A stretch of 64,000 nt of DNA from Rhodococcus globerulus NBRC 14531. GTDB lineage: Bacteria > Actinomycetota > Actinomycetes > Mycobacteriales > Mycobacteriaceae. The position numbers were made by a program, and so were the translations under genes. Under the pieces are notes generated by a model. The model saw only the letters and a program-made list of their open reading frames with translations. It made no database searches and was not told where the DNA came from. Position 1 is the stretch's first letter. Each line of letters begins with the position of its first letter. This document shows positions 59,436 through 64,000 of this stretch, piece after piece. Location: NCBI RefSeq assembly GCF_001894805.1, contig NZ_BCWX01000002.1, positions 744,001-808,000 of the forward strand, read 5' to 3'.

Positions 59436-59487
59436 CCGCGGTTCATATCCGAAACTTCTTGTGCTCCTTGTGGAAAGGATTGATCAG

Positions 59488-60405
59488 ATGTCATATCGCC
59501 CCACGAGCTTGCGTCGAGCGGCCCGAACGTGTGTTGCGCTCGCATCAGCTGGTTCGTTCGTGCTAGCCGGCGCAAGCGCTGCTACCGCGACGCCGATTGA
59601 TCTACCGTTCTCAGGATCGTCGGAACTCGGCTCGAGTGCGCCGGCTGCCGTCGTAGCACCCCGACTTGCATCGGTGGACAATTTTCGCGATGTGGCAGGT
59701 CGGGAAGCCGGTTACGTCGGAACCGGCGGCCTGCATGTGCGCCAGGGAGTGTTCTACCGCGCCAACGCGATAACCCCGAGCGCCGAGGACCTCGCGACAC
59801 TCGAGTCGCTCCATCTGACCGCGGTGTATGACCTGCGGACCGAGGCCGAGATCGCGGCGAACCCGAACACTCTGCCCAGCGGGGTTCGTTACGAGAAAAT
59901 TCAGGTCCTTGCGGCTGATCCGAGCGGCGACGTCGCCTCCATTGCCACAAAAGAGCAAGCGCTGGCGTATGTCCAGTCCGGCTACCGGTCGACCGTCAGT
60001 GATTCCGTCTCCCGTGCCGGATTCGGTGAGCTGTTGACCCAGCTCGCAGATACCCCCGGTGCGCAGATTTTCCACTGCACCGCAGGCAAGGATCGCACCG
60101 GCTGGGCATCGGCGCTGCTACTGAGCATTGCAGGTGTATCTCGAGAGACGATCATGGAGGACTATCTGCTCACCAACGAGTACTCCGCGGCGTCGATCGA
60201 CGCAAAGGTGGCTCGTATTGCCGCCGCAAAGGGTCAGGAGTACGCCGAGGTTTATCGGTTGCTCCTCGGGGTCGATGCCAGTTATCTGCAGGCGGCATTC
60301 GACGAACTGGACAACAACTACGAATCCTTCGACAGCTATCTCGTCGACGGACTCGGCTTGGACGTGGAAACGATCATCAAGCTGAAACTCAAGCTTCTGG
60401 TCTGA
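59488..60405 (+). CDS. Secreted tyrosine phosphatase (PtpB/Tyr_phosphatase-3 type)
   Basis: This 305-aa protein has an N-terminal signal peptide (about residues 1-35, ending ASAATATP) and a phosphatase domain: VDNFRDVAG, VYDLRTEAE and the active site HCTAGKDRTG with Cys197 and Arg203 (Cx5R). The Lys-Asp in the loop is characteristic of MptpB-like atypical phosphatases that also act on phosphoinositides. ATG 59488 follows GGAAAGG and gives a normal signal peptide. Because it is exported, its target is outside the cell or in the wall. Confidence 0.9.
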   Translation: MSYRPTSLRRAARTCVALASAGSFVLAGASAATATPIDLPFSGSSELGSSAPAAVVAPRLASVDNFRDVAGREAGYVGTGGLHVRQGVFYRANAITPSAEDLATLESLHLTAVYDLRTEAEIAANPNTLPSGVRYEKIQVLAADPSGDVASIATKEQALAYVQSGYRSTVSDSVSRAGFGELLTQLADTPGAQIFHCTAGKDRTGWASALLLSIAGVSRETIMEDYLLTNEYSAASIDAKVARIAAAKGQEYAEVYRLLLGVDASYLQAAFDELDNNYESFDSYLVDGLGLDVETIIKLKLKLLV

Positions 60406-60430
60406 GTTCGCGTGAGAGGAAATGAAACCG

Positions 60431-60474
60431 CTGGGCGCGTGACCGATGTGATTGGTCACGCGTCCAGCAGTTTT
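60431..60474 (+). terminator. Rho-independent terminator after the phosphatase gene
   Basis: CTGGGCGCGTGACC (60431-60444) pairs with GGTCACGCGTCCAG (60454-60467), with one G-U pair and a 9-base loop, followed after three bases by TTTT (60471-60474). Confidence 0.85.
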
Positions 60475-60517: not shown

Positions 60518-60534
60518 CTTGAACGTCGTTCAAG
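60518..60534. promoter_or_regulatory. BioQ-type operator before bioY
   Basis: CTTGAAC-GTC-GTTCAAG is a perfect 17-base palindrome with a 3-base centre. It matches the TGAAC-N3-GTTCA-type sites of the TetR repressor BioQ known in Corynebacterium and Mycobacterium. A TATCTT (60515-60520) overlaps it. It predicts biotin-dependent repression of the bioY operon. Confidence 0.75.
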
Positions 60535-60551
60535 TATCTGAAGGAGTGGGC

Positions 60552-61136
60552 ATGTCAAGTCTCGAGGGCGCCCAGGCGTCGCCGGTCGGCATTCAAGCAA
60601 GGGAAATGGCTCAGATCGCGGTCTTCGCGGCGCTGATCGCTGCATTGGGTCTTCCCGGCGCTATCTCGATCGGTATCAGCGGCGTGCCTATCACGCTGCA
60701 GACGCTCGGAGTTATTCTCGCCGGTGCGATCCTCGGTGCACGGAAAGGTGTTGCGGCAGTTGCCGTCTTCATGGCACTGACACTGATGGGATTGCCACTG
60801 CTGTCAGGCGGACGCACCGGACTCACTGCCCTCGCTGGGCCTAGCGCCGGCTACCTGATCGGCTGGATTCCCGCGGTACTGTGCATCGGCTGGCTCACTG
60901 CCAGGATCTTGCCGAAGTACCCGCTTGTGCTGGGTATTTTGATCAACGCGTTTGGCGGAATTGTTGTCGTGTATCTGTTCGGCACGGCAGGGCTCATCCT
61001 GCGGACCGACATGGGTATCGGTGCGGCACTGAGTACCAACGTGGCATTTATCCCCGGCGATGCGTTGAAGGTGGTTGTCGCGAGTGTTGTCGCCAAGGGG
61101 GTACACCGAGCATATCCAGGACTGATTCGTCGGTGA
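60552..61136 (+). CDS. bioY: Biotin ECF transporter S component BioY
   Basis: This 194-aa membrane protein has six hydrophobic segments and the BioY signatures AISIGISGVPITLQTLGVILAG, GLPLLSGGRTGLTALAGPSAGYLIGW and the C-terminal FIPGDALKVVVAS. It captures biotin for import; it needs the BioM ATPase and BioN permease of an energy-coupling module, not found here. ATG 60552 follows AAGGAG. Its stop overlaps the next gene (GTGA). Confidence 0.93.
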   Translation: MSSLEGAQASPVGIQAREMAQIAVFAALIAALGLPGAISIGISGVPITLQTLGVILAGAILGARKGVAAVAVFMALTLMGLPLLSGGRTGLTALAGPSAGYLIGWIPAVLCIGWLTARILPKYPLVLGILINAFGGIVVVYLFGTAGLILRTDMGIGAALSTNVAFIPGDALKVVVASVVAKGVHRAYPGLIRR

Positions 61137-62239
61137 TCGGAGCACTCGGGGGACACGGCGACCAGCGGGCGCTCGATCTCGGCGGCACAGTTCTCACCTA
61201 TGCAGAACTGGACGCCGCCATCGAGCGATCGCCGCAGGCTGCCGTGTGTGACGCGTCGGCGCTGCCGGTGCTGGAAGCGCTGATCTGCATCTTTGCTGCC
61301 GCGCGGCGTGGAACCGCGGTGATCGTGGAGGATCCGGCGACGCGACCCGAGCGCGGCGAAATCGATCCGTCGTCGTTCCTGCTTGTTGCCACGTCGGGTT
61401 CCAGTGGCCGGCCACGTCCGCTGGCCAGGACAGCGGCGTCGTGGTTCGACAGCTTCCCCGAGTTCACCACCATCACCGGCATCGAGGCACACGATCGAGT
61501 GCTGATCACCGGGCCGCTCCACGCAACGATGCACCTGTTCGGCGCTGTTCACGCATTGTGGCGAGGCGCGTGTGTCACCGACGACCCAACGGAGGCGACG
61601 GTTGTACACGCGGTTCCCGCCGTGTTGCGACGCGTTGTGGTCGAGGCGCCGCGGTTGCGAACTGCTGTTGTTGCCGGGACCGTGCTGGACGACGGTGCCC
61701 GGGCCGCAGCGTCGGGGATCGAGATAGTCGAATACTACGGCGCTGCAGAGCTTTCCATTGTCGCTGCCCGGCGGGTGCCTGAGCCGATGCGTTTACTCGA
61801 CAGCGTCGACGCCGAGATTCGCGACGGACTCTTGTTTGTCCGTTCGCCGTATCGTGTGCTGGGTGCGGCGGAGTGGTTCGGTGTGGGGGACAGAGCGATC
61901 CTCGGCTCGAACGGGGAGTTGACGATTCTCGGCCGCGGGGAGTTTGCGATCAACGTCGGCGGAACCACGGTCATGGCCGAGGACGTCGAGCGAACCCTGG
62001 AGTCAATGGACGGCGTCAGAGGCGCCGCCGTAATCGGTTCGCCGCATTCGGTTCTCGGAGAGACGATCACAGCTGTGATCGAGCGCGACGACGCCGTCAC
62101 TCTCCAGGCAATTCGTGCGCAGGCGCGGGCGTTGTTGGCACGAGAAGCCATGCCGAGTCGCTGGATCACCGTCGACGAACTGCCACGTACCGGTAGTGGC
62201 AAAGTCGCTCGAGGGTTCGTGAAAGAGTTGCACTCATGA
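61133..62239 (+). CDS. Compact AMP-dependent acyl-CoA ligase (YhfT-like)
   Basis: This 368-aa adenylating enzyme has the P-loop-like A3 motif (LVATSGSSGRPRP), A5 (YYGAAELS), A7 (GVGDRAIL), A8 (LGRGEFAINVGGTTVMAEDVE) and A10 with the catalytic Lys (PRTGSGKVARG). It is about 130 residues shorter than usual because the N-terminal subdomain is reduced. GTG 61133 overlaps the bioY stop. The bioY-ligase-thiolase order corresponds to yhfU-yhfT-yhfS of Bacillus. It is expected to activate a fatty or dicarboxylic acid; substrate unknown. Confidence 0.85.
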   Translation: MIGALGGHGDQRALDLGGTVLTYAELDAAIERSPQAAVCDASALPVLEALICIFAAARRGTAVIVEDPATRPERGEIDPSSFLLVATSGSSGRPRPLARTAASWFDSFPEFTTITGIEAHDRVLITGPLHATMHLFGAVHALWRGACVTDDPTEATVVHAVPAVLRRVVVEAPRLRTAVVAGTVLDDGARAAASGIEIVEYYGAAELSIVAARRVPEPMRLLDSVDAEIRDGLLFVRSPYRVLGAAEWFGVGDRAILGSNGELTILGRGEFAINVGGTTVMAEDVERTLESMDGVRGAAVIGSPHSVLGETITAVIERDDAVTLQAIRAQARALLAREAMPSRWITVDELPRTGSGKVARGFVKELHS

Positions 62240-63363
62240 ATTCCGCTCCTGTTCTGGTGGCCGCACGGCGAAGCCCGATCGGTAATGCAGGCCATGGATT
62301 TGCAGACCTCACAGCGACGGATCTCGCCGCCCCGGTACTCGGCGAAGTAGATGCTGTGCTGCGTCGATCCGGCATCGAGGCCGACGTGGACGACGTTATT
62401 CTCGGAAACTGCATGGGCCCCGGCGGCAATCCTGCTCGTATCGCAGCGCTTGCGGCCGGGCTGGGATTCTCTATCCCGGGCGTCACCGTTGACCGACAAT
62501 GCGGTTCGGGCCTCGATGCGGTCATGCAGGCCGCGCTGCGCGTACGCAGTGGAAACGACACGCTGATCCTGGCGGGTGGCGTCGAATCCGCCAGTACTGC
62601 TCCGTGGCGATACTGGCCGCCCACTTCGGGCGGTGAACTGACGCGATACACCCGGGCGCCGTTTGCTCCGCAGGGCTTTGCCGATCCCGATATGGGTTGT
62701 GCGGCAGATGATCTCGCGCGATTGCGTGGCATCAGCCGCGAGCGCCAGGATGCGTATGCAACGCGTTCGCACACGCTCGCGGCAGCGTCGGATTTCTCGT
62801 CCGAAATTGTGCCGATCGGCGCCGTCGCCGCTGACCAGCGGATTCGTCGCGGCATGACCGAAGCACGGTTGGCGAGGCTTCGTCCAAGTTTTGGGGTCGA
62901 CGGCACCGCAACGGCCGGGAACTCGTGTGGCATCTCGGACGGCAGCGCAGTGCTCGCTGTGACGACGGCGTCACTCGCGCAGGGAATGCCGGCGCTCCGA
63001 ATTCTCGGCACAACTGTTGCCGGGTCCGATCCGGCATTGCCGGGACTCGGGCCGGTTCCCGCCGTTCGCTCGCTGTTCGCAAAAACCGGAATCGGTGCGT
63101 CCGACCTGGGTATTGTCGAAATCACCGAGGCGTTTGCCTCCGTAGTCCTGGCAGTATCGGACGAACTCGGACTCGACGAATCCATCATCTGCCCGCAAGG
63201 CGGGGCAATTGCGATGGGCCATCCGTGGGGCGCTTCGGGAGCTGTTCTGTTGGTGCGCTTGGCAAGTCAGATGCTCGCCGACGGCGGCCCGGAACTGGGG
63301 CTTGCAGCGTGCGCAATCGGCGGCGGTCAGGGCATTGCAATGCTGGTCGAGCGTGTTTCGTGA
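62236..63363 (+). CDS. Thiolase (acetyl-CoA acyltransferase, YhfS-like)
   Basis: This 375-aa thiolase has the catalytic Cys in DRQCGSGLDAV, GHPWGASGA, and a C-terminal CAIGGGQG, where CxGGGxG is usual. The middle motif is GNSCGISDGSAVL in place of NASGINDGAA. ATG 62236 overlaps the ligase stop (ATGA). It joins or splits acyl-CoA units; in this operon probably extends or shortens a biotin precursor such as a dicarboxylyl-CoA, by inference. Confidence 0.88.
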   Translation: MNSAPVLVAARRSPIGNAGHGFADLTATDLAAPVLGEVDAVLRRSGIEADVDDVILGNCMGPGGNPARIAALAAGLGFSIPGVTVDRQCGSGLDAVMQAALRVRSGNDTLILAGGVESASTAPWRYWPPTSGGELTRYTRAPFAPQGFADPDMGCAADDLARLRGISRERQDAYATRSHTLAAASDFSSEIVPIGAVAADQRIRRGMTEARLARLRPSFGVDGTATAGNSCGISDGSAVLAVTTASLAQGMPALRILGTTVAGSDPALPGLGPVPAVRSLFAKTGIGASDLGIVEITEAFASVVLAVSDELGLDESIICPQGGAIAMGHPWGASGAVLLVRLASQMLADGGPELGLAACAIGGGQGIAMLVERVS

Positions 63364-63373
63364 GGCTGCAACG

Positions 63374-64000
63374 ATGAGCGAACTTCTGGCGGAACGAATT
63401 GCTCGACTAGTTCGCAGCAATCCGTCGACGGTCGCAGTTGTCTCGTCGCGCGACGAGATCAGCTACGCCGATTTCTGGGCGCGGGTGTGCCGGGTCGCCG
63501 CGGGACTGGCGTCGATGAACCGAGTTGCGGTACTGCCGACCTCGGACGTCGAATCGTTGGTGGTTGTCGCGGCTGCGATGCGGACGGGTACCAGTGTGGT
63601 CCTGCTTCATCGCCATCTGCTCGGGCCGCAGTTGGCGCGGGTGCTCGAGCTGTCCGTTCCCGGAGCCGTTGTCGCGGAATCGAAGCAGCACAGGCGGTTG
63701 CGCAGGCTGGGGTTCTCGGGTGAACTTGTCACCGCGGTTGATCTCGAAAGTGACGGGGCGTCGAATCAGGCTTCGGCCGAGTCCGAACTGTTGATCGGTG
63801 TCACGTCGGGCACTACCGGCGAGCCGAAGCTCTTCGTCCGAAATCAGTTGTCCTGGGCACGAACTCTTGATCGATCGGATGCCGTGTTCGACGTCGGTGT
63901 CGGAGATCGAGTGTCCGTACCGGGCGTCCTCGATCACACCCACTTTCTGTACGGAGCGCTCCATGCGCTCACCCGCGGTGCCACTGTCGATCTCCGTGGC
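63374..64000 (+). CDS. AMP-dependent acyl-CoA synthetase, 5' part
   Basis: The frame opens at ATG 63374 and stays open for all 209 codons to the right edge of the window. It has the N-terminal subdomain (SSRDEISYADFWARVCRVAAGL) and the A3 motif GVTSGTTGEPKLF, so it is a second adenylating enzyme after the thiolase, running off the window. GAGG lies at 63362-63365. It may be the larger ligase partner of the compact one at 61133. Confidence 0.85.
   Translation, partial: MSELLAERIARLVRSNPSTVAVVSSRDEISYADFWARVCRVAAGLASMNRVAVLPTSDVESLVVVAAAMRTGTSVVLLHRHLLGPQLARVLELSVPGAVVAESKQHRRLRRLGFSGELVTAVDLESDGASNQASAESELLIGVTSGTTGEPKLFVRNQLSWARTLDRSDAVFDVGVGDRVSVPGVLDHTHFLYGALHALTRGATVDLRG

Follow-up and report, generated by a model that had tools for sequence, protein, structure and literature searches.

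A bioY operon with a BioQ-type operator, two acyl-CoA ligases and a thiolase in Rhodococcus globerulus: a possible salvage route by two-carbon extension of an imported acid

We consider here an operon at the end of a stretch of 64,000 nucleotides of Rhodococcus globerulus NBRC 14531 (contig NZ_BCWX01000002.1, positions 744,001 to 808,000 of the forward strand), the whole of which is called the window. In the operon, bioY, a gene for a compact acyl-CoA ligase (ligA), a thiolase gene and a second ligase gene (ligB) overlap or nearly abut behind a perfect BioQ-type palindrome. The operon is real and has predicted BioQ-type control, and it belongs to an old and widespread cassette that is present here in a new arrangement. 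We propose a model, to which we give a probability of roughly 0.4, that this is a salvage operon switched on in biotin shortage, by which an imported acid, likeliest bisnorbiotin, would be activated and extended by two carbons; the substrate, the direction of the reactions and the release of the product are what we infer.

The bioY gene (60552..61136, plus strand, ATG start) encodes a biotin-type S-component of an energy-coupling factor (ECF) transporter, with 194 amino acids and a match of 122.6 bits to Pfam PF02632. The ligA gene (61133..62239, plus strand, GTG start), which overlaps the bioY stop, encodes a compact acyl-CoA ligase of the ANL type with 368 amino acids and the signature R-x3-SW after the P-loop, and its own stop is overlapped by 4 bases by the gene of a YhfS-type thiolase (62236..63363, plus strand, 375 amino acids, with the domains Thiolase_N and Thiolase_C). 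After 10 bases there follows ligB (plus strand, ATG start), encoding a second ANL acyl-CoA ligase of 460 amino acids, which is cut by the window end, with 63374..64000 inside the window and the stop at 64756. Both ligases have the Pfam domains AMP-binding and AMP-binding_C, the AMP-binding match of ligA being exactly at the cut-off (29.9 bits). The operon structure described in an earlier sequence-only reading, i.e., bioY-ligase-thiolase-ligase behind a perfect palindrome, is thus confirmed from the coordinates and the Pfam domains.

The operator TTGAACGTCGTTCAA (60519..60533, plus strand) is located 18 bases 5' of the bioY start codon and is the sole match without mismatch to TTGAACNNNGTTCAA within the window. 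In the whole genome the perfect palindrome TGAACN3GTTCA occurs nine times, compared with three times for the reversed-pattern control, and its count thus exceeds chance. Three of the nine precede biotin genes: one lies between bioA and bioFD, one separates a TetR gene from bioB, and the third is that of the window, 5' of bioY (the places of bioF, bioB and bioA at palindromes were confirmed by search, while bioD was assigned by reading). The remaining six have no such position. The perfect core is present 5' of bioY in all 16 loci of the window's family, comprising the window, two relatives and 13 records with Rhodococcus, Rhodococcoides or Nocardia in the title. If one mismatch is tolerated, the core is found in 17/51 actinobacterial loci as compared with 9/1020 random windows, and in none of 16 Bacillota and 7 Alphaproteobacteria loci. 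The claim of a BioQ-type site is thus borne out, and so is the conservation of the operon in relatives with BioQ sites, on which the sequence-only reading had staked itself (16/16).

A predicted BioQ repressor is also present in the genome, encoded by the TetR-family gene divergent from bioB. The best PDB matches of this protein are 5yek, 5xs9 and 5yej (154-155 bits), which we take to be structures of M. smegmatis BioQ; its best NCBIfam model is a tetracycline TetR, far below the cut-off. BioQ presumably releases its operator when biotin is short. The six palindromes away from biotin genes were rejected as BioQ sites. Of these, the two at L006 and the ones at L009 and L012 adjoin what read as other TetR, LLM-type or SDR genes, and neither L010 nor L011 shows a biotin gene. 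At L006 (8762 and 8840) and L009 (4801) the sequence AATGAAC-N3-GTTCATT stands by a different TetR gene, accompanied at L009 by an LLM-type gene (by reading), and these are perhaps sites of another TetR regulator with a BioQ-like core. At L012 (4547), TGAACAATGTTCA and a second, imperfect copy lie between divergent SDR-like and TetR-like genes. A palindrome with a 6-base spacer was also considered as the motif and was rejected, giving only chance matches.

For the spread of the cassette, we took a profile of five cassette thiolases and mapped the best 80 named loci among the matches listed, together with the window and four relatives. The resulting denominator of 85 loci includes three non-cassettes (L099, L103, L105) and four loci in which bioY could not be seen because the sequence begins close to the end of a contig (L052, L059, L075, L077). 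The bioY gene is present in 74/85 loci and bioM together with bioN is nearby in 56/85, whereas biotin ring-assembly genes are found within 9 kb in one locus only (L097; flanks of up to about 8 kb were covered, and less where a contig ended). From these counts it follows that the enzymes travel with the importer and not with biotin synthesis, and the linkage of biotin uptake with acid activation and a thiolase, to which the sequence-only reading had drawn attention, is supported.

The gene order varies with the lineage. It is bioY-ligA-thiolase-bioM-bioN-ligB in Rhodococcus and Nocardia (the strain of the window having no bioMN in the operon), bioY-ligA-thiolase-bioM-bioN in most other actinobacteria, bioM(-bioN)-bioY-ligase-thiolase in Alphaproteobacteria and bioY-ligase-thiolase in most Bacillota, and in Arthrobacter the ligase-thiolase pair stands next to an opposite-strand bioY-bioM-bioN operon. 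In one genome (G008; L126, L133) the pair is about 34 kb from bioY-bioM-bioN on the same contig, while the two are neighbours in Arthrobacter L093, L098 and L101. Two records are of doubtful placement: L026, a contig of a metagenome-assembled genome titled Rhodococcus, is placed under a cyanobacterial lineage, probably by mixed binning, and L075 has the cassette ligase and thiolase in a cyanobacterial metagenome-assembled genome, by transfer or contamination. Of the 296 genomes in a phylum sample, 195 contain a thiolase matching at E 1e-90, presumably a paralogue in most cases; at least seven cassette genomes (G000, G050, G225, G268, G278, G008, G292) were recognized from the neighbours among the best 20 matches, and the compact ligase as sole query gave 5/296. 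Since six or seven cassette genomes could co-occur by chance with BioY, which is present in 205/296, the case rests on adjacency.

The enzymes could also be thought to supply a precursor, with glutarate or azelate, as a dicarboxylic acid of external or internal origin, being activated and converted to pimeloyl-CoA for biotin synthesis, as the sequence-only reading had suggested. The enzyme set could convert C5 to C7, and in the window genome BioQ-type sites precede bioA, bioF and bioB (and, by reading, bioD). The proposal is, however, weakened by a set of 53 genomes in which both enzymes are encoded (48 chosen across genera from the 80 named loci, and G000, G050, G225, G268 and G278). In 30 of these genomes bioB, the gene for the last step of biotin synthesis, is over the cut-off; the other 23 fall short of it, G326 among them with a weak match of 91 bits. 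Completeness is not given for 48 of the 53, so that some of the absences may be gaps, and this takes something from the case for our model, too. For three of the genomes without bioB, namely G225 (a single contig), G268 and G278, the listed completeness is 100%. BioA is over the cut-off in 22/53, and a bioF-like match better than E 1e-9 is missing in 9/53, a lower bound, only clear absence having been counted with the window's own bioF under the cut-off (395.7 vs 426.45 bits). In the phylum sample, bioB is found in 58/296. As a pimeloyl-CoA pathway is useless for biotin without bioB, the pimeloyl proposal fails as the general function. The single locus with ring-assembly genes nearby also speaks against it, as does the Pfam search of the ligases and the thiolase, where no BioW or KAS III-type domain was present and AMP-binding and Thiolase domains were found instead. 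Such a route could operate in single lineages such as that of the window, having bioA, bioF and bioB, but on the whole we regard it as improbable.

The enzymes of the cassette form recognizable families. In the thiolase, Cys89, His329 and Cys359 occupy the catalytic positions of thiolases, and we assume for them the corresponding catalytic roles. After the general model TIGR01930, its second NCBIfam match is PRK06690 (300.6 bits vs a cut-off of 498), which presumably stands for YhfS, and a Bacillota thiolase (L073) is likewise under that cut-off with 453.4 bits; there is also a match to ketoacyl-synt PF00109 of 23.6 bits, barely above the cut-off of 20.8. A tree of 64 thiolases has one bipartition with 100/100 support that separates 49 cassette rows, chosen from Actinomycetota, Bacillota, Pseudomonadota and one cyanobacterial metagenome-assembled genome, from 15 paralogues, a small set picked by similarity. 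Judged by this tree, the cassette thiolases are one family, whose genes neighbour bioY in Actinomycetota, Bacillota and Pseudomonadota.

The two ligases of the window have 32% identity over 313 columns. For both of them the best NCBIfam model is PRK07638 (224.6 and 118.8 bits vs a cut-off of 518), which we take to stand for YhfT, with four tested Bacillota cassette ligases also under the cut-off at 410-497 bits. The signature R-x3-SW just past the P-loop is present in 35/35 aligned cassette ligases, including members from Bacillota and Alphaproteobacteria, and is not found in four non-cassette ligases used as controls. In the window genome it occurs in 2 of the 26 loci readable among the best 30 of 138 ANL matches, namely only in both cassette ligases and in 0/24 of the others, and from this ligA and ligB look like one family. 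(Many of the 138 ANL-type matches, obtained with the cassette ligase profile, lie in very long frames of up to 9542 amino acids, as in non-ribosomal peptide synthetase genes.) Near the cassette, G278 (L025) has only the ligB type, the Agromyces loci have only the ligA type, and the rhodococci have both. The presence of two ligases, one of them trimmed, had been taken as an additional feature; both are indeed present, but a separate mechanism is not required, because both carry R-x3-SW and some loci have only one. In the ligase alignment no conserved charge pattern was seen that separates dicarboxylate, biotin and fatty acid substrates. The proposed kinship with Bacillus yhfT and yhfS is supported by the best and second-best models, by the one thiolase family and by the shared signature, with all the PRK scores far below the cut-offs.

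We now come to the importer. The BioY of the window matches that of L. lactis (4dve) at 4.9e-23 and retains the segment IPGDxxK, in which the Asp and the Lys of the L. lactis protein presumably bind biotin. The genes bioM and bioN are absent from the window locus; in related genera they are located between the thiolase gene and ligB. A second bioY-bioM-bioN operon of the window genome lies on contig C2 (L132:4745-6625, minus strand), with no BioQ-like site nearby. The two BioY proteins differ in two segments, IPGDxxK and GPSAGY of the cassette protein corresponding to IPLDxxK and SPTAGF in the second one, which may therefore carry another substrate. In 18 of the 23 cassette genomes without bioB over the cut-off there is exactly one BioY, the other five having two or three matches, and in 17 of these 18 the fetched locus holds bioY, the exception being L049 in G309. 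As the BioY is the single one in these genomes, the cassette-linked BioY is there probably the biotin importer.

By contrast, it could be supposed that the BioY-type protein imports a compound other than biotin, for example pantothenate, with the enzymes acting on that compound or on the CoA supply. This corresponds to genetic work in which YhfU, the BioY-type member of B. subtilis yhfUTS, was shown to serve the uptake of pantothenate and is named PanU (PMC11487621), and it would accord with the second bioY-bioM-bioN operon in the window genome and with the two or more BioY matches in five of the 23 genomes. If it were true, however, the 18 genomes with a single BioY and no bioB would be hard to account for, and it is the cassette BioY, not the second one, to which the BioQ site and IPGDxxK belong. 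We give this possibility little credence.

The partner genes in other lineages suggest the chemistry. Among 19 Bacillota loci, a FabG-like ketoreductase gene (KR) accompanies the cassette in the same orientation in 13, as do FAS1_DH/MaoC dehydratase genes (DH) in 11 and a FabK-like enoyl reductase gene (ER) in 4, with all three kinds in L074, L080, L087 and L090; in L090 the FabK gene follows the ECF genes. The families were typed by Pfam and NCBIfam, the FabK model giving 286.9 bits vs a cut-off of 453.1. The clearest case is Paenibacillus L076 (G325, with no bioB and two BioY), where importer, extension enzymes and ECF module are in one run, bioY-ligase-thiolase-DH-DH-KR-EcfA-EcfA-EcfT. Five Bacillota loci (L076, L078, L083, L090, L104) continue into an ECF-like module, domain-typed in L076 only. 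Paenibacillus L074, L080 and L087 have ligase-thiolase-DH-KR-FabK runs, L087 having its ligase split over two frames and L080 a short second dehydratase. In the Alphaproteobacteria, an MDR oxidoreductase is present in 5/7 loci, four of them close relatives; its best model is a PIG3-family quinone reductase, with acrylyl-CoA reductases lower down, and it is our guess that it reduces enoyl-CoA. Among the Actinomycetota loci, more distant KR, dehydratase or ER matches are found in L022, L035, L038, L051, L093, L097, L098 and L101.

The FabG, MaoC and FabK types point, as we read them, to the reductive direction. Ligase, thiolase, reductase, dehydratase and enoyl reductase together form the set required for a free acid to gain two carbons from acetyl-CoA, and since such a cycle uses no malonyl-CoA, and hence no biotin enzyme, it fits an operon active in biotin shortage. 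It is noted that a ligase and a thiolase also open and close beta-oxidation, so that the enzymes might instead degrade biotin or an antivitamin. Under this idea the FabK types, which are reductases, would be out of place; no acyl-CoA dehydrogenase is present among the ten typed partner proteins, although none was searched for; and in the available portions of the published work the related operons are repressed, not induced, by biotin (PMC4016012, PMC6391492). We consider degradation very improbable.

Another possibility is that the operon serves a biotin-sparing acyl metabolism, in which, as acetyl-CoA carboxylase falters, scavenged fatty acids are activated and lengthened with acetyl-CoA via the thiolase, bioY being merely a co-regulated neighbour. 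The FabG, MaoC/FAS1_DH and FabK partners are acyl-chain enzymes, general fatty-acid ligase models rank among the next best after PRK07638 for the ligases, a CoA-ester product requires no release, and the metabolism would be workable in auxotrophs and prototrophs alike. Against this, bioY is physically tied to the enzymes in 74/85 loci, with the ECF module in the same run in some, and fatty acids need no BioY. We regard it as rather unlikely; fatty-acid salvage, the second suggestion of the sequence-only reading, may yet hold.

Based on our model, the pathway would be as follows. When biotin is short, BioQ would leave the operator and the salvage operon would be switched on. BioY, with BioMN encoded elsewhere in the strain, would import a carboxylic acid, the ligase would convert it to its CoA ester, and the thiolase, working in the synthetic direction, would add acetyl-CoA. 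The two-carbon extension would then be completed, without malonyl-CoA, by a reductase, a dehydratase and an enoyl reductase presumably encoded elsewhere in the genome. The likeliest substrate would be bisnorbiotin, in which the side chain of biotin is shortened by beta-oxidation, so that one round would give biotin. Bisnorbiotin is of microbial origin. It is known as a biotin catabolite (PMC11203980, in the part consulted). In rhodococci and nocardiae, a shorter catabolite could be the substrate of the second ligase, or this enzyme could act in product release. That some two-carbon extension of an imported acid takes place seems to us rather likely, while a biotin-like substrate is a tentative assignment, and more tentative still is the full proposal of a vitamin-repair pathway in at least three phyla, in which BioY would import bisnorbiotin and activation as the CoA ester would be followed by regrowth by two carbons, with neither malonyl-CoA nor biotin enzymes being needed.

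Several points weigh against the model. No KR, dehydratase or ER gene is present in the window operon or adjoins the cassette in the other Actinomycetota loci, as seen with hidden Markov models seeded from Bacillota and Alphaproteobacteria only. No thioesterase was found among the typed partner proteins, apart from the MaoC protein of L081, which matches 4HBT weakly (22.3 bits vs a cut-off of 20.6), no wider search having been made. Some of the partners (FabG, FabK, HadAB-like) resemble enzymes that act on acyl carrier protein. The Claisen condensation by a thiolase is uphill. Bisnorbiotin is a candidate chosen by logic, not from a residue or an assay. Adjacent bioY is missing at L049, L074, L080 and L087 despite the presence of upstream sequence, and the pantothenate uptake by YhfU noted above also counts here. 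Finally, biotin control beyond the window's family is seen only in part, because a BioQ-like site is found in 1/35 actinobacterial loci outside the 16 family loci, BirA-like sites are found in 8/16 Bacillota loci (vs 24/320 random windows), and no BioR-like site is found in 7 Alphaproteobacteria loci.

It is helpful to compare the operon with known systems. Reverse beta-oxidation consists of a thiolase, a ketoreductase, a dehydratase and an enoyl reductase. Our proposal has the same order of chemistry, with acetyl-CoA as the extender and no malonyl-CoA, and differs from it in the start from a free acid via a ligase, in the FabG/MaoC/FabK-type partners and in the tie to a vitamin importer, the activity here being predicted. 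The BioZ and BioW routes to pimeloyl thioesters likewise tie acid or acyl-CoA chemistry to the biotin supply; unlike them, the cassette has different domains and is retained where bioB is absent.

Repression by biotin and BirA has been published for both yhfUTS and yhfS-yhfT, according to the portions available of PMC4016012, PMC6391492 and PMC7235819. Like the operon of the window, Bacillus subtilis yhfUTS has a BioY-type gene, a ligase gene and a thiolase gene in one biotin-repressed operon (excerpts of PMC4016012 and PMC11487621), whereas its control is by BirA and not BioQ, it has one ligase, and YhfU is the reported pantothenate S-component. In the available text on Staphylococcus aureus (PMC6391492, PMC7235819), the yhfS-yhfT pair is also of thiolase-like protein and ligase and is biotin-repressed via BirA, but its promoter is separate from that of bioY and there is no BioQ. 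In Corynebacterium glutamicum, bioYMN encodes a biotin ECF importer, the expression of which follows the biotin supply, with a predicted BioQ motif TGAAC-N3-GTTCA; the excerpt of this report (PMC3398298) mentions no ligase or thiolase, while it is bioMN that the window operon is without. In the parts consulted of the open-licence literature on the biotin regulon and on yhfS and yhfT, no function is given for the pair and no repair route from bisnorbiotin is named.

As regards the surroundings of the operon, an intrinsic-terminator-like stem-loop (60430..60468, plus strand; 18 pairs, 11 of them G-C, with a T-rich tail) lies ahead of it and 3' of a phosphatase-like gene; the scan ahead of the operon found one such stem, compared with a mean of 0.4 (standard deviation 0.8) in shuffles. 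This gene (59461-60405), located directly 5' of the stem-loop and the operon, is protein-phosphatase-like with a signal-like start (by reading). Beyond position 64000, about 240 bases past ligB, there is an alpha/beta-hydrolase-like gene on the same strand (L005:5995-6816, by reading).

The ligase-thiolase pair belongs to the biotin regulon of Bacillus and Staphylococcus, and the comparison made here helps to separate its candidate roles. Because the pair is retained where bioB is absent, its role is unlikely to be limited to a route to a biotin precursor, and the gene neighbours in Bacillota suggest its chemistry. If the repair of bisnorbiotin is true, it would give yhfT and yhfS a function and would represent a novel type of vitamin salvage, with relevance for biotin auxotrophs, by which a biotin-starved cell would regain the vitamin without needing biotin enzymes.

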